A stretch of 64,000 bases of DNA, from NCBI RefSeq assembly GCF_001548035.1, contig NZ_AP014723.1:868001-932000 (forward strand). The letters run 5' to 3'. Below the pieces are notes generated by a model. That model did no database searches, was not told the DNA's origin, and saw nothing but the letters and a program-made list of their open reading frames with translations. Shown here piece by piece: positions 41,460 through 51,602 of the stretch. Within the stretch, counting starts at the first letter, position 1; each line of letters begins with the position of its first letter. Origin of the DNA: Sulfurospirillum sp. UCH001. GTDB lineage: Bacteria; Campylobacterota; Campylobacteria; Campylobacterales; Sulfurospirillaceae. The position numbers and the translations under genes are program-made.

Positions 41460-44400
41460 ATGGCACTCTCTATAGGAACAATTAAGCAAATGAGCGGCCT
41501 TGTGATGGCGAAGAATTCACAAGGAGAAGATCGTGTTTTGAAAGTAGGTGATACTGTCTTTTTTGAAGACAATATCCGTACTATTGGTGCAGGTTCACAT
41601 ATCGTTTTAGGCCTCAATAATGGTCAGGAGATCGTTTTAGATGGAAACGATGCTGTTTTCCTCGACAAAAGTGTCTATGTCGCGGAGTCATTTGGTGAGG
41701 AAGCCGTTGTCGCGGGTAAAACAATGGATAATGTGGTCTCTGGTAAAAGTGTTGAAGAACTACAAGCGGCTTTATTAGAAGGTAAAGATATCAATGAACT
41801 TCAACCTACTGCTGCGGGTGAAGGTGGTGCCACTGTTGGCGGTGAAATGTCAACCAATGCGATGGCACGTTATGTTACGGGTGGTAACGAAAGTAATGTC
41901 GTTGCAGATTATCGTACCATAGGCGGCACAGGTGCAGGAGATGTAACGTATACAGCTCCAACCGGCGCTGTAACACCTATTGTCAATACTCCACCTTTAG
42001 GCAGCGATCTAGAAGTCATCACCAAAGAAGATACAAGTATTACAAGTGCACTTCCTGTTGCAACAGATGCCGATGGCAATGCAATTACGTATGCGCTTGC
42101 TGATGCTACCACCAATGGTACTGTTGTGGTCAATGCTGATGGTACGTATACTTATACACCAAATGAAAATTATAATGGACCAGATAGTTTTACCTATACC
42201 ATTAATGATGGAAATGGTGGAGAAAATACATATACGGTATTTATTAATGTAACTCCTGTTAATGACCCTGCCATCTTAAGTAGCGCAACTGTAAGCCTTG
42301 ATGAGACCAATGCAGTCCTTACTACAGGCGGAACACTCACTGTGACTGACGTAGATGATGGAGAAGCAGCGTATGTGGCACAAACCAATGTGGCAGGAAC
42401 CTATGGTACGTTCTCAATCGCTGCAGATGGCACATGGAGCTATGTCGCTAATGAGAGTTATGACTCACTTAATGCCGGTGATACGATTAGTGATACCTTT
42501 AGTGTTGCTAGTATCGATGGAACAACGAGCAGTGTTCAAGTAACCATTGTAGGAACCAATGATACAGCAATTCTAAGTAGCGCAACTGTAAGCCTTGATG
42601 AGACCAATGCAGTCCTTAGTACAGGCGGAACACTCACTGTGACTGACGTAGATGATGGAGAAGCAGCGTATGTGGCACAAACCAATGTGGCAGGAACGTA
42701 TGGTACCTTCTCAATCGCCGCAGATGGCACATGGAGCTATGTTGCTAATGAGAGTTATGACTCACTTAATGCGGGTGATACCATTAGTGATACCTTTAGT
42801 GTTGCTAGTATCGATGGAACAACGAGCAGTGTTCAAGTAACCATTGTAGGAACCAATGATACAGCAATTCTAAGTAGCGCAACTGTAAGCCTTGATGAGA
42901 CCAATGCAGTCCTTACTACAGGCGGAACACTTACGGTTACCGATGTGGATGATGGAGAAGCAGCGTATGTGGCACAAACCAATGTGGCAGGAACGTATGG
43001 TACCTTCTCAATCGCCGCAGATGGCACATGGAGCTATGTTGCTAATGAGAGTTATGACTCACTTAATGCGGGTGATACCATTAGTGATACCTTTAGTGTT
43101 GCTAGTATCGATGGAACAACGAGCAGTGTTCAAGTAACCATTGTAGGAACCAATGATACAGCAATTCTAAGTAGCGCAACTGTAAGCCTTGATGAGACCA
43201 ATGCAGTCCTTAGTACAGGCGGAACACTCACTGTGACTGACGTAGATGATGGAGAAGCAGCGTATGTGGCACAAACCAATGTGGCAGGAACGTATGGTAC
43301 CTTCTCAATCGCCGCAGATGGCACATGGAGCTATGTTGCTAATGAGAGTTATGACTCACTTAATGCCGGTGATACGATTAGTGATACCTTTAGTGTTGCT
43401 AGTATCGATGGAACAACGAGCAGTGTTCAAGTAACCATTGTAGGAACCAATGATACAGCAATTCTAAGTAGCGCAACTGTAAGCCTTGATGAGACCAATG
43501 CAGTCCTTACTACAGGCGGAACACTCACTGTGACTGACGTAGATGATGGAGAAGCAGCGTATGTGGCACAAACCAATGTGGCAGGAACGTATGGTACCTT
43601 CTCAATCGCCGCAGATGGCACATGGAGCTATGTTGCTAATGAGAGTTATGACTCACTTAATGCCGGTGATACGATTAGTGATACCTTTAGTGTTGCTAGT
43701 ATCGATGGAACAACGAGCAGTGTTCAAGTAACCATTGTAGGAACCAATGATACAGCAATTCTAAGTAGCGCAACTGTAAGCCTTGATGAGACCAATGCAG
43801 TCCTTACTACAGGCGGAACACTTACGGTTACCGATGTGGATGATGGAGAAGCAGCGTATGTGGCACAAACCAATGTGGCAGGAACGTATGGTACCTTCTC
43901 AATCGCCGCAGATGGCACATGGAGCTATGTTGCTAATGAGAGTTATGACTCACTTAATGCGGGTGATACCATTAGTGATACCTTTAGTGTTGCTAGTATC
44001 GATGGAACAACGAGCAGTGTTCAAGTAACCATTGTAGGAACCAATGATACAGCAATTCTAAGTAGCGCAACTGTAAGCCTTGATGAGACCAATGCAGTGC
44101 TTAGTACAGGCGGAACACTTACGGTTACCGATGTGGATGATGGAGAAGCAGCGTATGTGGCACAAACCAATGTGGCAGGAACGTATGGTACCTTCTCAAT
44201 CGCCGCAGATGGCACATGGAGCTATGTTGCTAATGAGAGTTATGACTCACTTAATGCGGGTGATACCATTAGTGATACCTTTAGTGTTGCTAGTATCGAT
44301 GGAACAACGAGCAGTGTCACTGTCAATATTATCGGTACAAACGATGGTCCAATGGCAGAGTCAAAAGTCTTTACAACAGCAGAAGATACGCCAATTATCA

Positions 44401-45926
44401 TTACGGATGCGCAGCTTCTTGCAAATGCAACAGACATCGACTCTAATGATATTTTAAGTATCAATAACGTAACATTGGTCGATAATGCTAATGGTACACT
44501 GATTGATAATCACAATGGAACCTATACGTTTATACCAAGTACAAACTACAGTGGTAGTGGTATCGAGTTCATGTTTACGGTTACAGATACTAGTGGTATG
44601 ACTGATACACAAGATGTTACGATAAATGTAACACCTGTTGCAGATGCTCCATTGTTAGATGTGAGTGTTTCTCAAGGCGATGTCATCATTAGTCCAGAAT
44701 ACCCAGCACCTGTTTTCAATGGACATCTTAATGCTGGTAGTACAACTGGTAATATTGTCTTTGATGGTTATACTAAAACAGCGGCTATTGATATTAAGAG
44801 TTATAAAACGAGTGTTGATGATGGACGCATTGTCTTCCTTAGAGATGGTGTTGTGGTTAAGGAAGTCTTGATCGATACTTTACTTCCAACTGCCAACAAT
44901 ACACCTGTTCATTTGGAGCTCAGTGCGGATGAGTACTTCAATACCGTTCGCATTGATAATTTTGCAACCAGTAACGATAAAAATGCTGAATTTAAGATCG
45001 ACAGCGTGAGCTTAATCTCCGATATTGCCGTTGAATACAACATCAATATCGCAGCAGCAGTGACCGATAGTAACGAAACATTGAGTCAAGTGTTGATTGA
45101 TCAATCAACATTACCAATGGATGCTGTCGTGTATGAAAATGGGGTTATCCAAAGCGCAACCGATGGATATTATAGTGTTGATCCTGATGCGACAGTAACC
45201 TTTACAACAGACCATTACATGACTGTCGATGAAATCAATGCGATTACAAGCAGTGTCACTTCTTGGGATGCTACTGACTATGCGACGACAACGCAAACAG
45301 CATTGAATGAAATCAGTGGCACAACGGGCGATAATGAGCTCTATGGATCAACAGGTGATGATCTGATGCAGGGCTACGCTGGCAATGACGCCCTCCATGG
45401 AGGTATAGGCGATGATGCCCTTTATGGCGATAGCGGTGATGATGCCCTCTATGGTGACAGTGGTAATGACCATTTGGATGGTGGACTTGGAGTGGATTCT
45501 ATGTATGGTGGAGCGGACAATGATACTCTAACATACGATAGCCATGATACTCAAGCAGATGGTGGTATTGGTGTTGATACACTATTGGTCAAAGATGCAG
45601 TTATGGATTTTAGTGCAATTGATGACGCAAAAATTGAAAATATCGAAGTCTTGGATCTTTCTAAAGCAGATGTTTCAATCATCAATCTTAATCCAAACGA
45701 TGTCTTTGATATCACAGATAATGCCAGCACGATTTTGAAAATTATTGGTGATAGTGATGATAGTGTTGCTAGTACCATTACGGGTGGTGATTCTCCATGG
45801 GCAGTCGTCGCTGACCAAACAGGAGTCGATGATGGCTTTACGCGTTATGAAGGCACTTTGGATGATGGTGTCACCAAAGTTATGGTCGACATTCAAGATA
45901 CAATTGTCCATACTGACTTTGATTAA
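41460..45926 (+). CDS. Large repetitive type I-secreted adhesin (LapA-like, VCBS/RTX), 1488 aa
   Basis: Residues 1-115 form a small beta-rich module (SIGTIKQMSGLVMAKNSQGED, RVLKVGDTVFFEDNI) like the LapA retention module, which stays in the TolC-like channel and holds the adhesin on the cell. A LapG-type site TAAG follows at 117-120. After VCBS-type domains come seven 99-residue repeats (271-963), cadherin-like segments, then RTX calcium-binding nonapeptides (DNELYGSTGDDLMQGYAGND and on, from about 45330), and a C-terminal secretion region (NPNDVFDITDNASTILKIIG). It is exported by the genes at 33282-40731. A GGAGG ribosome site precedes the ATG. Confidence 0.93.
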   Translation: MALSIGTIKQMSGLVMAKNSQGEDRVLKVGDTVFFEDNIRTIGAGSHIVLGLNNGQEIVLDGNDAVFLDKSVYVAESFGEEAVVAGKTMDNVVSGKSVEELQAALLEGKDINELQPTAAGEGGATVGGEMSTNAMARYVTGGNESNVVADYRTIGGTGAGDVTYTAPTGAVTPIVNTPPLGSDLEVITKEDTSITSALPVATDADGNAITYALADATTNGTVVVNADGTYTYTPNENYNGPDSFTYTINDGNGGENTYTVFINVTPVNDPAILSSATVSLDETNAVLTTGGTLTVTDVDDGEAAYVAQTNVAGTYGTFSIAADGTWSYVANESYDSLNAGDTISDTFSVASIDGTTSSVQVTIVGTNDTAILSSATVSLDETNAVLSTGGTLTVTDVDDGEAAYVAQTNVAGTYGTFSIAADGTWSYVANESYDSLNAGDTISDTFSVASIDGTTSSVQVTIVGTNDTAILSSATVSLDETNAVLTTGGTLTVTDVDDGEAAYVAQTNVAGTYGTFSIAADGTWSYVANESYDSLNAGDTISDTFSVASIDGTTSSVQVTIVGTNDTAILSSATVSLDETNAVLSTGGTLTVTDVDDGEAAYVAQTNVAGTYGTFSIAADGTWSYVANESYDSLNAGDTISDTFSVASIDGTTSSVQVTIVGTNDTAILSSATVSLDETNAVLTTGGTLTVTDVDDGEAAYVAQTNVAGTYGTFSIAADGTWSYVANESYDSLNAGDTISDTFSVASIDGTTSSVQVTIVGTNDTAILSSATVSLDETNAVLTTGGTLTVTDVDDGEAAYVAQTNVAGTYGTFSIAADGTWSYVANESYDSLNAGDTISDTFSVASIDGTTSSVQVTIVGTNDTAILSSATVSLDETNAVLSTGGTLTVTDVDDGEAAYVAQTNVAGTYGTFSIAADGTWSYVANESYDSLNAGDTISDTFSVASIDGTTSSVTVNIIGTNDGPMAESKVFTTAEDTPIIITDAQLLANATDIDSNDILSINNVTLVDNANGTLIDNHNGTYTFIPSTNYSGSGIEFMFTVTDTSGMTDTQDVTINVTPVADAPLLDVSVSQGDVIISPEYPAPVFNGHLNAGSTTGNIVFDGYTKTAAIDIKSYKTSVDDGRIVFLRDGVVVKEVLIDTLLPTANNTPVHLELSADEYFNTVRIDNFATSNDKNAEFKIDSVSLISDIAVEYNINIAAAVTDSNETLSQVLIDQSTLPMDAVVYENGVIQSATDGYYSVDPDATVTFTTDHYMTVDEINAITSSVTSWDATDYATTTQTALNEISGTTGDNELYGSTGDDLMQGYAGNDALHGGIGDDALYGDSGDDALYGDSGNDHLDGGLGVDSMYGGADNDTLTYDSHDTQADGGIGVDTLLVKDAVMDFSAIDDAKIENIEVLDLSKADVSIINLNPNDVFDITDNASTILKIIGDSDDSVASTITGGDSPWAVVADQTGVDDGFTRYEGTLDDGVTKVMVDIQDTIVHTDFD
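42270..44348 (+). repeat. Seven tandem 297-bp repeats in the adhesin gene
   Basis: Copies start at 42270, 42567, 42864, 43161, 43458, 43755 and 44052. They are nearly identical at the DNA level. The variable block is CTCACTGTGACTGACGTA in copies 1, 2, 4 and 5 and CTTACGGTTACCGATGTG in 3, 6 and 7; another switch (ACTACAGG or AGTACAGG) is shuffled differently. This mosaic shows recombination or gene conversion among copies. Confidence 0.97.
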
Positions 45927-46054: not shown

Positions 46055-46630
46055 ATGGCATTTTCGGTTGGAATTATCAAAGAAATTAGTGGTGTTGTTA
46101 TCGCAAAGAACAGTGTAGGACAAGAGAGAATTTTAAAAGTAGGGGATAACATCAACTCAGAAGAAACTATCAGTACGGTTGGTGGAGATTCTCATGTATT
46201 ACTTGTCTTAACAGATGGTCGCCATATCTTTTTAGGCGGTAATAATGTTGTTGTCCTTGATAAAAGTCTTTATGCCTCTGATGAAGGATTTGAATCGGAT
46301 GCTCTGTCTGAAAAGCATTCGTATCTCATCAGTGAAGATGGAGGTGTGCACTTTAGCAATCTTTCTTCATTCCATCACAACTTAGCGTCAGATACTTTAG
46401 ACATAATACCAAATAACACGCATCTTTCTATCAATCCTGCAGATATCTTAGATCTCACAGAAAAGAACAATGAAATTTTAAAAATTTTTGGTGAAGCATC
46501 TCCTTCTACTTCTCTTAGTTCATCTTCTTATGCAGTTTTTTCAGATTACAGCAGTATGCATACAAGCGCTACTTATTATGACACTGCCGATCATAGTCTA
46601 AAACTCGATCTTCTTCATACGTACTTTTAA
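46055..46630 (+). CDS. Mini-adhesin: retention-like module fused to secretion region, without cleavage site, 191 aa
   Basis: The N-terminus SVGIIKEISGVVIAKNSVGQ, then ERILKVGDNINSEETI, closely matches the adhesin's retention module (SIGTIKQMSGLVMAKNSQGE). The C-terminal half has LSINPADILDLTEKNNEILKI, matching the adhesin's C-terminal segment INLNPNDVFDITDNASTILKI. The 1,300-residue middle and the TAAG motif are absent. No repeats or RTX nonapeptides remain. It has no signal peptide, as expected for a type I substrate. The likely fate is export followed by permanent parking in the TolC-like channel, making it a plug, a decoy or a competitor of the adhesin. This is inference from sequence layout. 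Confidence 0.8.
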   Translation: MAFSVGIIKEISGVVIAKNSVGQERILKVGDNINSEETISTVGGDSHVLLVLTDGRHIFLGGNNVVVLDKSLYASDEGFESDALSEKHSYLISEDGGVHFSNLSSFHHNLASDTLDIIPNNTHLSINPADILDLTEKNNEILKIFGEASPSTSLSSSSYAVFSDYSSMHTSATYYDTADHSLKLDLLHTYF

Positions 46631-46692: not shown

Positions 46693-47637
46693 TTAGTGTG
46701 GCAACGTTAATTTTACGATGCGAAATGCCACCGCATTTTGAAAAATGAGCGGATAGTCGTATTTACACGAAATAATCCCTTCACAGGGAGAAATGATGGT
46801 TTGTAGCAGTGAGCCATCGAGTGCGTTATAGATGCGTGCTAAAGGTTGACCGTGTACCACGTGTTCACCAATGGGTGCGAGAGCATCAAAAAGCCCTGCG
46901 GAACTGCTTTTAACCACTTCCATATCCTCACTGGTGATGATGTTCCCTACGGCTCCCTCAAAAGCACTGTATTCTATGATTCCTTTTTTAGCCAAAAAGC
47001 GAATCAGAGCATCAAATACTTTCGTCGACTCTATTTTTCTAAGCGTACCTTTTTTACCTGAGATGATGGAAAAAGACTTTGCATTCCAGATTTGCCAGTT
47101 ATAATTGAGTGAAACAGTATCGCTAGGCGTTGGGTCTTTGTAGTGGATAAATTCGAGTCCAAACGCTTGTGCTTCATTCACATCTTCATATCCTGTACGA
47201 AGCACTTTAACATAAGGAATGCACTCCACACGATCTTTGCGTGCTTCAAGAAGGACGGCATAGTCAAAATGATTGATTTTTTCAAACAGCTTCGCTGCGA
47301 TGCGCTGAGTAGTTTCGCCTTTGTTGTAGCCGGGGAACATCGCATCAATGTCGGTATTGTCCATAGGCCAGAAGGTTTTACCCATGTTAAATGAGTAAGG
47401 ATTGACTGCTGGAACGACTAAGATTTCGCCTTTAATGAAGGTGGGGTTTTCCAGTTCTTGCTGGCGTAAAAAGCGTACCAGTCTGGAGGCAACCCACAGT
47501 TGGTCGATAGCAGTTCCTGTAAGTGGTCCTACGATAACGCAGCTTGGTTTGCTGTTGGGAATGCCAAAACGAAACCCTTTGATACGAAGTGGCTCACGGC
47601 TGAGTGAGGTAATTTCGCACAGTATCTCTTCTCTCAT
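46693..47637 (-). CDS. AstE/aspartoacylase-family protein lacking metal ligands, 314 aa
   Basis: Overall similarity to the neighbouring AstE-like protein is visible: a central fold with VVPAVNPYSFNMGKTFWP and IDAMFPGYNKGETTQR, and a C-terminal barrel (HVVHGQPLARIYNALDG). The zinc-binding pattern is gone: the HGDE position reads TGTAIDQ, so His becomes Ala and Glu becomes Gln, and DIHAS reads LLEAR. It is therefore unlikely to be a metallo-hydrolase and is more likely a regulatory or structural partner. It is the last gene of the minus-strand operon and overlaps the active-looking paralogue by four bases. Confidence 0.8.
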   Translation of the reverse strand: MREEILCEITSLSREPLRIKGFRFGIPNSKPSCVIVGPLTGTAIDQLWVASRLVRFLRQQELENPTFIKGEILVVPAVNPYSFNMGKTFWPMDNTDIDAMFPGYNKGETTQRIAAKLFEKINHFDYAVLLEARKDRVECIPYVKVLRTGYEDVNEAQAFGLEFIHYKDPTPSDTVSLNYNWQIWNAKSFSIISGKKGTLRKIESTKVFDALIRFLAKKGIIEYSAFEGAVGNIITSEDMEVVKSSSAGLFDALAPIGEHVVHGQPLARIYNALDGSLLQTIISPCEGIISCKYDYPLIFQNAVAFRIVKLTLPH

Positions 47638-48581
47638 TCATTCACCTCACATGGATTTTCTAAAATGCGTGCAAGCAAAGAGCCTTCATACACGACAGGG
47701 TACTCTCTGATGGTGAACAAAAGCCCATCACAAGGACTTAGTAAACGCTCTTTTATGATGCCTTCTAATGGGTCAATGATTTCGCCTAGTTTCTCACCTT
47801 TTTTTACCATGACGTTATGCTCTAGGGTTGGTATAAATATCCCTGCCTCAGAGGCATTGATGAAATGCACCTCTGAGTTTTGAGTTGAGATGGACGTTTT
47901 ACAAGGATGCACTGGTTCATCGATGATGCCTACATGTGCCATAAAATTGAGCAATCCATTGGCAAGATTTTCTCCATACTCTTTGGTGATGCGCATACCA
48001 ACACCCATTTCCACCACAAGGGTTTTAGTGCCAATGGAATTCATGGCGTGCGAAAAGGTTGACTCTAAAACGGTTACAGCGTCATGCACCCAGATAAAAT
48101 CAATGCCGATTTTCTCAGCTAAGGGAACAAGCTCATGCGCATTTGAGCGACTGATACGTACTTGTGGTAGCTCTTTTAGGAAGATATTGCTCGCATGAAT
48201 ATCAATGGCAAAGTCACTGCCTTTCACCGTTTCCACAATAGCACTTGCCACTTGCGCAGGCAGAAAATCTGCGGTATGACCTGGAAATGTACGATTGAGG
48301 TCAACATCGTAAAAAGGAAAATGACGGTTGATACTATCGATGCCCATAGGATTCATGGCAGGGTAAATATCTACAATACCTTTAATCTTTTTTGGATTTT
48401 CCCTAAGCCACTTGATGAGCAGATAACACACATACTGCCCCTCAAGCTCATCGCCATGCGTTCCTGTGACGATAGAGATACGCTTTGTAGATGTGGTGAT
48501 ATCGGGTGGATTGAAACGGTTTCGTTTGAGCTTTAACGTCTCATCCACAGGGAGTTTTACACTAAAAACTTCTTCTATCAT
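47634..48581 (-). CDS. AstE/aspartoacylase-family metallo-deacylase, 315 aa
   Basis: Members remove acyl or succinyl groups from N-acylated amino acids or related carboxylates using zinc. The ligands are clear: THGDELEG gives His42 and Glu45, and IDIHAS gives His129. DLNRTFPG is the substrate-carboxylate site. A C-terminal barrel (HNVMVKKGEKLGEIIDPLEG) is typical of this family. It lies between the transglutaminase-like gene and the ligand-less paralogue with four-base overlaps on both sides. In this context its substrate may be a peptide or acyl-amino acid made by the ATP-grasp enzyme of the same operon. Confidence 0.85.
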   Translation of the reverse strand: MIEEVFSVKLPVDETLKLKRNRFNPPDITTSTKRISIVTGTHGDELEGQYVCYLLIKWLRENPKKIKGIVDIYPAMNPMGIDSINRHFPFYDVDLNRTFPGHTADFLPAQVASAIVETVKGSDFAIDIHASNIFLKELPQVRISRSNAHELVPLAEKIGIDFIWVHDAVTVLESTFSHAMNSIGTKTLVVEMGVGMRITKEYGENLANGLLNFMAHVGIIDEPVHPCKTSISTQNSEVHFINASEAGIFIPTLEHNVMVKKGEKLGEIIDPLEGIIKERLLSPCDGLLFTIREYPVVYEGSLLARILENPCEVNE

Positions 48582-49363
48582 TGCTCCTCCCTTGCAACGG
48601 TCACGTTGACGTATAAGTTTTGTTGGCTCTTGCCTATAAATACACCACGGTTGAGGCGGCAGTCCATAAAATCTCGTCCATGTGCAATTTTGATGTAAGG
48701 CTGATGTTCTAACATGATCCCATTGGTGGGGTCAAATCCTCTCCAATACCCATCAATAAGCGCTTCCACCCACGCATGACTTTCACCCTCACCATCGATA
48801 AATCCCGCCACATAGCGTGCGGGAATGTGGCTTAGGCGAAGTAGCGTAATGAGCAAATGACTAAAGTCTTGACAGACTCCATGATGGCGCAAAAGTAGGG
48901 CATCGGCATCACAGGAGGTCGTTGAAACACCTGCTAAATACTCGAAGTTTTGGAAAATGGTTTGGTTAAGCATTTTCGCTAAACTAAGAGGCGATTGAGG
49001 AAGCATCAAGGTCTCCACATAATCACGCGCAAGAGGTGAAAAAGGCGTGAGTGTGGTTGGATGTAAGTACAACGCAGCATTTTCGTTATCTTTGTACTGA
49101 TAACTTCCATGAAATGCCACACTGCCTTTGAGCACCGCTTCAAAATTACGGTGTGATTTTTCAATCGTTCCAAAGAGTAGGGCATTGCCAAAACCATCAT
49201 GACTCAAAAAGAATGGCACATCATTGTTGATGTGAAGTTCCCAATCCAGCAAGGTTTGTACGCCATTACTGAGGGGAAGCATACGCAAGCAAAAGGCATG
49301 CTTACGTACGGACTCTTTGAAGTTGAGCGTAAACGCGTATGAAAAATTAACTCTCAGAGACAT
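48578..49363 (-). CDS. Transglutaminase-like cysteine protease family protein, about 261 aa
   Basis: The core has Cys in HHGVCQDFSHLLITLLRL, His in YVAGFIDGEGESHAWVEALID and Asp in GFDPTNGIM, the standard transglutaminase-like triad. The N-terminal domain is the beta-rich type usually joined to this family. The ATG at 49363 overlaps the alpha-E stop region and is preferred to an upstream TTG. Proteins of this type occur together with alpha-E and circularly permuted ATP-grasp genes and are thought to cut or transfer peptide linkages. Activity unproven. Confidence 0.85.
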   Translation of the reverse strand: MSLRVNFSYAFTLNFKESVRKHAFCLRMLPLSNGVQTLLDWELHINNDVPFFLSHDGFGNALLFGTIEKSHRNFEAVLKGSVAFHGSYQYKDNENAALYLHPTTLTPFSPLARDYVETLMLPQSPLSLAKMLNQTIFQNFEYLAGVSTTSCDADALLLRHHGVCQDFSHLLITLLRLSHIPARYVAGFIDGEGESHAWVEALIDGYWRGFDPTNGIMLEHQPYIKIAHGRDFMDCRLNRGVFIGKSQQNLYVNVTVAREEQ

Positions 49364-50009
49364 AGGCAAGTGTTCCGTAAATAGAATTTATTTTTTCTAA
49401 TGTTTTGTATTTGTTGCTTGATGAAAGAGCGACATGCTTGTGGTTTGGTCTTATCTTCTCTGCAATGATGTTGAGCTTTTCCACATCCAAAAGTGCTGCT
49501 TCGATGCTGTCATACATACGGATATTCAGATCCATTCTCTCTACCACTTTTCCAAACTGAATAAGAGGAGATTCTTTGGCTTCGACTAAGGAAAGCTCTA
49601 AATTTCCCCAAATGGCATCAAGTTCTTTGAGCGTTGACTCTAGCCAGAAAAGGGAAACCACTCTTTCTTCTTTTGCCTTTTGATAGGCAAGATAGAGAGC
49701 ATTGATACGGCTAAACATACGGTTTGAGAGGTGAGATCGTGTTAAAATCGCATTTTCTCTTGCATAATGAATGACAGAGATAAGACTGGCATGTTCTACC
49801 TCAAAAACGCTTTGTCTTAAAAATGCTTGCGAAGAATCATAATCCATTGCAATTCCAAGCCTTGCATAGAAATTTTTTGCATCATCAAAGTCCTCATCGA
49901 GGATTTTATCGAAAAGGGAGATCACAAGACGTGTCATGGTTTCTGCTCTTTGGATATAACGCCCCATCCAGTAAAGGTTTTCGGCTGTTTTAGGTGAGAT
50001 AAGTATCAT
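49347..50009 (-). CDS. Alpha-E domain protein (DUF403), 220 aa
   Basis: The ATG at 50009 is preceded by GGAGAG and overlaps the ATP-grasp stop as ATGA, so the shorter start was chosen. The sequence begins ILISPKTAENLYWMGRYIQRAETMTRLV, the diagnostic alpha-E opening, and is all-helical. Alpha-E proteins are found almost always next to circularly permuted ATP-grasp and transglutaminase-like proteins. Their biochemical activity is unknown. It presumably forms a complex with or supplies the ATP-grasp enzyme. Confidence 0.9.
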   Translation of the reverse strand: MILISPKTAENLYWMGRYIQRAETMTRLVISLFDKILDEDFDDAKNFYARLGIAMDYDSSQAFLRQSVFEVEHASLISVIHYARENAILTRSHLSNRMFSRINALYLAYQKAKEERVVSLFWLESTLKELDAIWGNLELSLVEAKESPLIQFGKVVERMDLNIRMYDSIEAALLDVEKLNIIAEKIRPNHKHVALSSSNKYKTLEKINSIYGTLAYVSES

Positions 50010-51379
50010 TTGCTCTCCTTTAATATCCATGTATCTTTAAACCCGCCACCTTGTGAGGAGTTGACGATGTAACTGCTCGGATCCATCGCAAAGCGTGTGA
50101 GTCCGCCTGGCCAGACAAAAATATCCTCTCCATAGATGGAAAACATACGTAAATCAGCCTTGCGAGGAGAGAGAGTTCCATTTTCATCAAGGCATTCGAT
50201 ATCATAAAATTCTATCACTTCTTGCGCGATAAAGCGGCGAGGTTCAGCGATAATAGCGCTTTTAAGTTTCTCACGTTCACTTTTGGTCAGTTTTGAGCCA
50301 AAGACAACGCCATATCCACCCGCTTCTGCAACATCTTTGATGACAAGGTTACGCATATTTTGCAAGATATGGTTGCGATCTTTCTCAAAAAAGGCAAGAT
50401 AGGTTGGTGCATTTTGTAAAATCGGTTCTTCTTTCATGTAGTAGCGAATCATCTCAGGTACAAAGTAGTAGATGCCCTTATCATCGGCAATGCCGTTTCC
50501 TATGCTGTTCATAATCGCTACATTACCAGAGCGATACACTTGTGTGATGTTAGAAACACCGATGAGTGAGTCTGGATTGAACTCGATAGGATCGAGCGCT
50601 TCATCATCAAGTCTTCGATAAACCGCCCCAACACGCGCTTTTTTGCCACTGTATGTTTTAAGGTAAAGCTTGTCTTTCTCCACGACTAAGTCATCTCCTG
50701 ATGCTAAAATCGCTCCGCTTTCTTTGGCTAAATAAGAGTGTTCGTAAAAAGCAGAGTTATAACGCCCTGGTGTTAAGATGACATTGATGCCCCCACGATT
50801 GACATACTCCATCGCTTTTTCCAAACGTTTTGGATAGTCATGCACCCTTTGAATAGGCAGTTTTTCAAAAAACTCAGGAAACACTTTGCGTGTGAGCATG
50901 CGAAGTGAGAGTGGATAACTCACACCACTAGGCACTCTGAGGTTATCTTCTAGCACGACCCAACCATCGCCAACACTGTTTTTGACAAGGTCAATGCCAC
51001 TGATGTGTACACGAATGTTCTTCGCCACAGGTGTGTTCGCAAAAGCGGGAAGATAGGCTTTGGATGAGAAGACAAATTCGCTAGGAATGATGCCGTCTTT
51101 GAGAATTTTTTGTGCTCCGTAGATATCTTCTAAAAAGAGATTGAGTGCGTAAATGCGTTGTCCAATTCCTTTTTCAAGGTATGCAAACTCCTCAGGTGGA
51201 ACGATACGAGGAATAATGTCAAATGGAAATTTACGCTCAATAAAAGCATTATTTTTGAAAAGGTTGAAGTTAATCGCTTCGGTGTTCATGTAAGCGAGTA
51301 ACTCTTGGACGCGTTTGGTATCTATAGTGTTTAAAATGCTTTTAAAAGCATCATAATGTGGACTGTGTGACTCAATCAT
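50006..51379 (-). CDS. Circularly permuted ATP-grasp type 2 ligase (DUF404/DUF407), 457 aa
   Basis: The product has the typical segments: GIGQRIYALNLFLEDIYGAQ, ISGIDLVKNSVGDGWVVLEDNLRVPSGVSYPL and VINDK-like residues replaced by GVFGSKLTKSEREKLK before the C-terminal AQEVIEF and DLRMFSIYGEDIFVWPGGLTRFA. Such enzymes join a carboxylate to an amine with ATP, forming a peptide-like bond. It is the first gene of the five-gene operon. Substrate unknown. Together with alpha-E and the transglutaminase-like protein this looks like a peptide-tag or small-peptide pathway, as proposed for such clusters. Confidence 0.88.
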   Translation of the reverse strand: MIESHSPHYDAFKSILNTIDTKRVQELLAYMNTEAINFNLFKNNAFIERKFPFDIIPRIVPPEEFAYLEKGIGQRIYALNLFLEDIYGAQKILKDGIIPSEFVFSSKAYLPAFANTPVAKNIRVHISGIDLVKNSVGDGWVVLEDNLRVPSGVSYPLSLRMLTRKVFPEFFEKLPIQRVHDYPKRLEKAMEYVNRGGINVILTPGRYNSAFYEHSYLAKESGAILASGDDLVVEKDKLYLKTYSGKKARVGAVYRRLDDEALDPIEFNPDSLIGVSNITQVYRSGNVAIMNSIGNGIADDKGIYYFVPEMIRYYMKEEPILQNAPTYLAFFEKDRNHILQNMRNLVIKDVAEAGGYGVVFGSKLTKSEREKLKSAIIAEPRRFIAQEVIEFYDIECLDENGTLSPRKADLRMFSIYGEDIFVWPGGLTRFAMDPSSYIVNSSQGGGFKDTWILKESK

Positions 51380-51419
51380 AACCTGTACCTTTGCCCTTTT
51401 TTACTCAATCTTGACACGC

Positions 51420-51492
51420 TTTTAAAGCAAAGCTTTAAAAACTACGCTAACACTAAGTTTTCTTCGGCAGAATGCCCGCACACCTTTGGTGC
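51420..51492. other. Three consecutive hairpins upstream of the ATP-grasp operon
   Basis: TTTTAAAGC/GCTTTAAAA (51420-51440), GGCA/TGCC (51466-51476) and CACC/GGTG (51481-51491) follow each other in 73 bases. They lie in the leader of the minus-strand ATP-grasp gene and could be a regulatory RNA, part of a dispersed repeat, or a terminator of the membrane-protein gene upstream. Confidence 0.55.
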
Positions 51493-51602
51493 TTTTCCTT
51501 TTTGCAGAATGAATTTTTAATGTCATAAAAGTAGTTTAGCACAAAATTAAGCAGAGAAAGTGAGTAAAAAGGCAGTTTTCTGCCTATTTTTTAATCAGTT
51601 CT

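Follow-up and report, generated by a model that had tools for sequence, protein, structure and literature searches.

The 64,000-nt stretch of Sulfurospirillum sp. UCH001 analyzed here (NZ_AP014723.1; the host genome is complete, one contig of 2.6 Mb), hereafter the window, contains a minus-strand operon of five genes (51379 to 46693) encoding an ATP-grasp ligase (AG), an alpha-E protein (AE), a transglutaminase-like protein (TG), an AstE/DoeB-like hydrolase (P2) and a paralogue of the latter that lacks its zinc ligands (P1). The operon is a new version of the known alpha-E/ATP-grasp/TG system, with the P2-P1 pair in the position where Anbu or a DUF2126 ligase stands elsewhere. Each gene overlaps its successor, by 25 bases (AG/AE), 23 bases (AE/TG, counted with the TTG start of TG) and 4 bases (both TG/P2 and P2/P1). 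The five overlapping genes that an earlier note on this DNA had placed at these coordinates thus hold up when each overlap is measured. The features are as follows (aa, amino acids):

50006 to 51379, minus strand: AG, circularly permuted ATP-grasp ligase, 457 aa (PF14403)
49347 to 50030, minus strand: AE, short alpha-E protein, 227 aa (PF04168)
48578 to 49369, minus strand: TG, transglutaminase/papain-like protein, 263 aa (PF01841 and PF08379)
47634 to 48581, minus strand: P2, AstE/DoeB-like zinc amidohydrolase, predicted to be catalytically intact, 315 aa (PF24827)
46693 to 47637, minus strand: P1, predicted pseudoenzyme paralogue of P2, 314 aa (fold model, residue loss in homologues)
51380 to 51602, minus strand: intergenic stretch that probably holds the operon promoter (18 upstream regions aligned)

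The first three genes had been recognized in the note as the known ATP-grasp, alpha-E and transglutaminase-like set, and their domain matches agree: all three components of the system of the kind described by Iyer (2009) are present. AG matches CP_ATPgrasp_2 (PF14403) over the whole domain (455 bits, 1.9e-136) and aligns end to end with PDB 3n6x (393 bits). The match of AE to Alpha-E (PF04168; 82.7 bits) is confined to positions 3-172 of a model with 294. Most alpha-E frames beside P1 are short, at 190-247 aa, although a few open frames run longer; those elsewhere have about 315 aa or belong to fusions. TG contains Transglut_core (PF01841, 64.7 bits) and Bact_transglu_N (PF08379, 32.5 bits), and its sequence and alignment to PDB 3isr reveal a Cys, His, Asp thiol triad in the motifs GVCQDFSH, ESHAWVE and FDPTNG.

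Its predicted fold and complete active site identify P2 as a zinc amidohydrolase of the DoeB/CphZ kind. It matches AstE_AspA_cat (PF24827) with 76 bits, and alignment with 2qj8, 3cdx and DoeB (6twm) gives a site composed of His42-x2-Glu45, Arg86, Asn96-Arg97, Asp127-x-His129 and Glu191. The His-x2-Glu...His zinc site (at His42, Glu45 and His129, as the note had read it), the catalytic Glu and the Asn-Arg substrate motif of the AstE/AspA-DoeB family are all there, and the catalytic residues are invariant in 76 out of 76 homologues. The predicted model has a pLDDT (predicted local distance difference test) score of 87.8, with DoeB/EutE 6twm among its best structure matches. In the aspartoacylase family, the Arg and Asn-Arg residues bind the substrate carboxylate.

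P1 shares the fold but not the zinc site, and its classification as a maintained pseudoenzyme is well supported by the predicted model and by the homologous sequences. Its PF24827 score (23.8 bits) is slightly below the cut-off of 25. The model (pLDDT 91.3) shows a complete AstE/DoeB fold, superposing on 6twm with a Z-score of 30.6 over 300 aligned residues (root-mean-square deviation 2.8), which places P1 in the AstE/AspA family by fold. The zinc site of that family is absent: both zinc His residues and the catalytic Glu are missing in all 81 P1 homologues. The window protein carries Thr40, Ala43, Glu131 and Ile192 at the positions of His42, Glu45, His129 and Glu191 of P2, and Asp98-Ala99 instead of Asn96-Arg97. 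None of the 81 sequences has His at the His42 position (where Arg prevails), His at the His129 position (mainly Ala or Glu) or Glu at the Glu191 position (mainly Tyr). The note was thus right that P1 lacks the zinc ligands and wrong in listing Ala, Gln and Glu at their positions: the first motif had slipped in register, and the alignment puts Thr40, Ala43 and Glu131 there, which leaves the conclusion about P1 unchanged. It had also named metal ligands elsewhere in P1 as what would overturn its view; we saw none, as no His or Cys that could form a replacement metal site is conserved across all lineages of the 81 sequences.

In Bacillota, Bacteroidota, Fibrobacterota, Fusobacteriota and a member of the Sutterellaceae, P1 has Arg and Glu at the positions of His42 and Glu45 and keeps Arg86, Asn96 and Arg97. 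The substrate-carboxylate residues have therefore outlasted the metal site in most P1 lineages; in the Campylobacterota, Sulfurospirillum above all, their equivalents are lost too. A set of residues found only in P1 scarcely varies in any lineage (W90, D93, FPGY104, GETTQR112, N180 and W184; in full W90-x2-D93-x-T95, FPGY104-x2-GETTQR112 and YNW181-x2-W184). The ratio of non-synonymous to synonymous substitution rates (dN/dS) is about 0.03 for P1, a value from the one usable close pair, more distant pairs being saturated at synonymous sites; between close species dN is 0.04 and dS 1.4-1.6, and P2 is in the same regime. In a tree built with a quick method, P1, on a long branch, and P2 each form one clade with largely mirrored branching, apart from an outgroup of RimK-linked AstE proteins, which points to one duplication before the spread over phyla. 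P1 is thus an old duplicate that lost its metal and catalytic residues, kept its fold and gained invariant loops of its own. The note's reading of P2 as an enzyme and P1 as a pseudoenzyme is borne out: the site is intact in 76/76 P2 and 0/81 P1 sequences, yet P1 retains fold and constraint.

A scan of GTDB contigs with a P1 profile gave 335 confirmed loci, of which the best 80 were examined, so rarer variants may exist. These 80 loci span six phyla, and nearly all follow the order AG-AE-(TG)-P2-P1; the note had proposed a survey of alpha-E neighbors, in which a pair not conserved with these genes would have spoken against its view. The return of the same gene order in six phyla puts the arrangement beyond chance. 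Exactly AG-AE-TG-P2-P1 on one strand was found in 50 loci and the same order with a split AG in three more, while in 14 AE is followed by P2 without an intervening TG, including one locus truncated ahead of AG and one whose P2 is split; the remainder are cut by contig ends or contain a broken gene. In some Campylobacterota the operon lacks TG, which is exchangeable and the least constant of the five genes. The P2 and P1 frames overlap in 51 out of 78 loci, mostly by 4 bases. No sixth conserved neighbor was found among the examined loci, the commonest gene clusters lying at scattered positions. Part of the loci come from contigs of metagenome-assembled genomes (MAGs), but isolates of Pseudobutyrivibrio, Ruminococcus flavefaciens, Prevotella and Mediterraneibacter are represented as well. 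Two loci deserve separate mention: in L022 (genome G026, another genus), which has no TG between AE and P2, a frame resembling a major facilitator superfamily transporter adjoins P1, and in L045 the P2 gene falls into two reading frames, with P1 and the other operon genes intact, either through a sequencing error or as a broken MAG copy.

The association also shows when one starts from alpha-E. Alpha-E occurs in 51 of 397 Campylobacterota genomes, 43 of which have P1; the same 43 hold P1 and P2 side by side and the other eight have neither. In the Lachnospirales, alpha-E is present in 13 out of 196 sampled genomes, all 13 with P1. Among 198 Bacteroidales genomes there are eight with alpha-E, and the six of these with P1 all have the short form; the two without P1 encode a 315-aa alpha-E or a match within an 870-aa frame. 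Neither P1 nor P2 was found alone among the 59 genomes in which P2 was sought. The P2-P1 pair is nowhere described in the literature searched; the founding paper of Iyer et al. (2009) lies outside that search and could list AstE-like neighbors.

A first relative is the Anbu operon (ATP-grasp, alpha-E, transglutaminase-like protein and Anbu), the form in which alpha-E operons have been published (PMC6376114 and PMC5666114, citing Valas and Bourne, 2008, and Iyer et al., 2009). It shares with the window operon the AG, AE and TG families and their combination with a hydrolase-type partner, but the P2-P1 pair takes the place of Anbu, and alpha-E is short in the P1 type. The Yersinia study detected no peptidase activity of Anbu itself (PMC6376114). 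The window operon has no Anbu. The sole PF00227 protein of the host genome adjoins HslU, so we rejected it as an Anbu candidate and regard it as HslV. The proteasome-family matches in Campylobacterota that were checked in detail are likewise HslV, with HslU adjacent in the host genome and in 11 out of 11 others, and the searched P1-bearing genomes of other phyla contain no proteasome-family protein. Genome G836, which lacks P1, encodes a 238-aa PF00227 protein and a TG beside a 315-aa alpha-E, as expected of Anbu. The P2-P1 pair and Anbu are mutually exclusive in this sample, but with a single Anbu-positive genome the pattern is no more than suggestive.

A second relative, the DUF2126-type system, consists of a TG, an AG/alpha-E fusion (841 aa in locus L037) and a large TG-DUF2126 protein, a putative amidoligase. 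The AG, alpha-E and TG families are again common to both systems; unlike the P1 type, the DUF2126 type has this second putative ligase, neither P1 nor P2, and a full-length, fused alpha-E. The Burkholderia cenocepacia cluster I35_5080-83, with its ‘large’ TG protein, is likely a relative of this type (PMC5491218). Where the P1-type operon lacks TG, the DNA directly downstream often carries a convergent operon of this kind (TG, AG-alpha-E fusion and TG-DUF2126). Such an operon lies downstream of P1 in many Campylobacterota (L034-L043, L048-L052, L056 and L057), which thus carry two versions of the system side by side. The host genome has no AG/alpha-E fusion, and DUF2126 itself was not searched for there; since its single alpha-E is the short, unfused one, the second operon is missing.

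Three other systems resemble parts of the operon. DoeB/EutE, an N-acetyl-diaminobutyrate deacetylase, is among the best structure matches of P1 as well as P2 and its catalytic residues align with those of P2, but the identity is only about 17% and both proteins score far below the cut-off of the DoeB equivalog TIGR02994 (34 bits for P1 and 49 bits for P2 against 402.7). We know of no ATP-grasp or pseudoenzyme partner in the DoeB pathway. CphZ, a cyanophycin dipeptide hydrolase of the AstE family (PDB 8ein/8eip), acts after an ATP-grasp peptide polymerase and has the fold of P2 and P1, whose models both match 8eip. It differs by its low identity (about 16%) and by a different ATP-grasp, and to our knowledge it has no pseudoenzyme. 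Finally, RimK/AstE-like and Rlo operons (PMC12239564; loci L023 and L024) combine a peptidase or AstE-like protein with an adjacent ATP-grasp ligase, but this ligase is of the RimK type, AstE is single and active, and there is no alpha-E or pseudoenzyme. The RimK-side AstE proteins from the same bacterial family, the outgroup of the tree above, are 26-29% identical to P2.

We infer, with a probability of roughly 0.5, that the five genes form a module for making and breaking a small amide or (iso)peptide, in which P1 is a dedicated non-catalytic subunit of P2. AG, together with the helical AE, would activate a carboxylate with ATP and join it to an amine, as its family suggests, and TG, a thiol enzyme of the papain/transglutaminase fold, would trim or transfer. 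P2 would hydrolyze an amide in the ligase pathway that is made or used by AG, while P1 would pair with P2, as in the heteromer suggested by the note, and shape, gate or sense the substrate. A P1 that keeps Arg86, Asn96 and Arg97 and has Arg in place of His42 may bind substrate or product without cutting it; for the Sulfurospirillum P1, from which the carboxylate residues are gone, only a structural or interface role would be left. A ligase with a dedicated AstE-type hydrolase has a precedent, as cyanophycin (ATP-grasp) clusters contain AstE-family isoaspartyl dipeptidases that split the final isodipeptide (PMC10206079). The P1 and P2 distances correlate at 0.87, against at most 0.15 in shuffles. 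A physiological hint in favor is that relatives of the operon respond to nitrogen starvation (PMC5491218, PMC6376114).

Several points weigh against this reading. We know of no reaction product for any alpha-E system. The P1 distances correlate even better with those of AE (0.93) and AG (0.92) than with those of P2, so that the partner of P1 could be another protein of the operon, although the correlations among the five proteins all lie between 0.80 and 0.93 and do not discriminate partners inside one operon. In the Anbu operon of Yersinia, the ATP-grasp protein yielded phosphate release only, and pull-downs revealed no complex (PMC6376114).

A partnership of P1 with AG or AE, in which its old carboxylate-binding cleft holds or delivers the substrate or growing product and P2 works alone, is a possibility that we regard as rather unlikely. 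It draws on the same distances, poor as they are at separating partners, and on the Arg86/Asn96/Arg97 equivalents that most P1 proteins keep. It is at odds with the position of P1, whose gene adjoins that of P2 at almost every locus, usually with an overlap, and with its P2-type fold, as paralogous subunits commonly pair. We find it somewhat less probable still that the operon is catabolic, with P2/P1 deacylating a scavenged compound and AG then ligating the freed amine in the manner of amine utilization or nitrogen salvage. The ectoine-catabolic deacetylase DoeB is indeed among the nearest solved relatives of P2, a related AG/alpha-E/TG cluster belongs to the NtrC/sigma54 nitrogen-starvation regulon of B. 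cenocepacia (PMC5491218), and related clusters co-vary with urea metabolism in marine metagenomes (PMC3597751), but no transporter or further catabolic enzyme is conserved beside the operon. It seems doubtful that P1 is alive with a new, metal-free activity. The candidate residues D93, E108, Q111, R112, N180 and W184 are invariant in 81/81 P1 sequences and differ in P2, even where the old site has decayed, and P1 is under strong purifying selection; these residues lie, however, in stretches 84-112 and 173-184, resemble no catalytic set known to us and can equally be explained as an interface. That P1 is merely a decaying tandem duplicate kept by chance would suit its lost catalytic residues and long branch, but is refuted by its distribution over six phyla, the lack of any P2-only genome in the set tested, its intact fold, its invariant private motifs and its dN/dS, and we give it almost no credence.

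The preferred reading of P1 as a dedicated P2 subunit can be taken further, to a widespread system of peptide or tag turnover that replaces Anbu. P2 would be active only as a heterodimer, and the dead P1, with its zinc His changed to Arg and its carboxylate residues kept, would bind the product and gate P2. We offer this extension tentatively and think it improbable in full.

Known since 2008-2009, the alpha-E/ATP-grasp/transglutaminase operon has no reported product in the literature searched. In the version described here, the hydrolase slot is occupied by an enzyme from a family with small, assayable amide substrates; it has a complete active site and a constant inactive twin. The cleavage target of P2/P1 would reveal, in reverse, the product of the ligase. 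The operon is present in culturable Sulfurospirillum and in isolates of the common gut and rumen genera Pseudobutyrivibrio, Ruminococcus, Prevotella and Mediterraneibacter.

Upstream of AG, the alignment of 18 regions revealed two promoter-like blocks conserved across Sulfurospirillum, TTAAAAAATA and TGTGCTAAACT. Between these blocks and the AG start, the clade of the window carries a leader insertion of about 105 bases (51400-51520), absent from other Sulfurospirillum, with a hairpin at 51418-51442. A repeat origin of the insertion was rejected as it is single-copy in the window, and no Rfam family comes near its gathering score in the leader region. A terminator-like hairpin of the preceding gene is located at 51570-51585. 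No sigma54 consensus was seen by eye in the Sulfurospirillum upstream region; Anbu is strongly expressed under nitrogen starvation (PMC6376114).

On the other side of the operon, the window encodes a giant cadherin/RTX-type adhesin (41460-45926, plus strand) with an array of 6.9 copies of a 297-base tandem repeat at 98% identity (42277-44317). Its neighbors are an outer-membrane efflux protein, a LapD-like GGDEF-EAL protein, an ATP-binding cassette (ABC) exporter with a C39-like domain and HlyD, and together they indicate a Lap-type type I secretion adhesin locus. The next gene (46055-46630, plus strand) encodes a 191-aa protein similar to the N-terminal module of the preceding adhesin, without repeats or a Pfam match, which is possibly a truncated adhesin paralogue.

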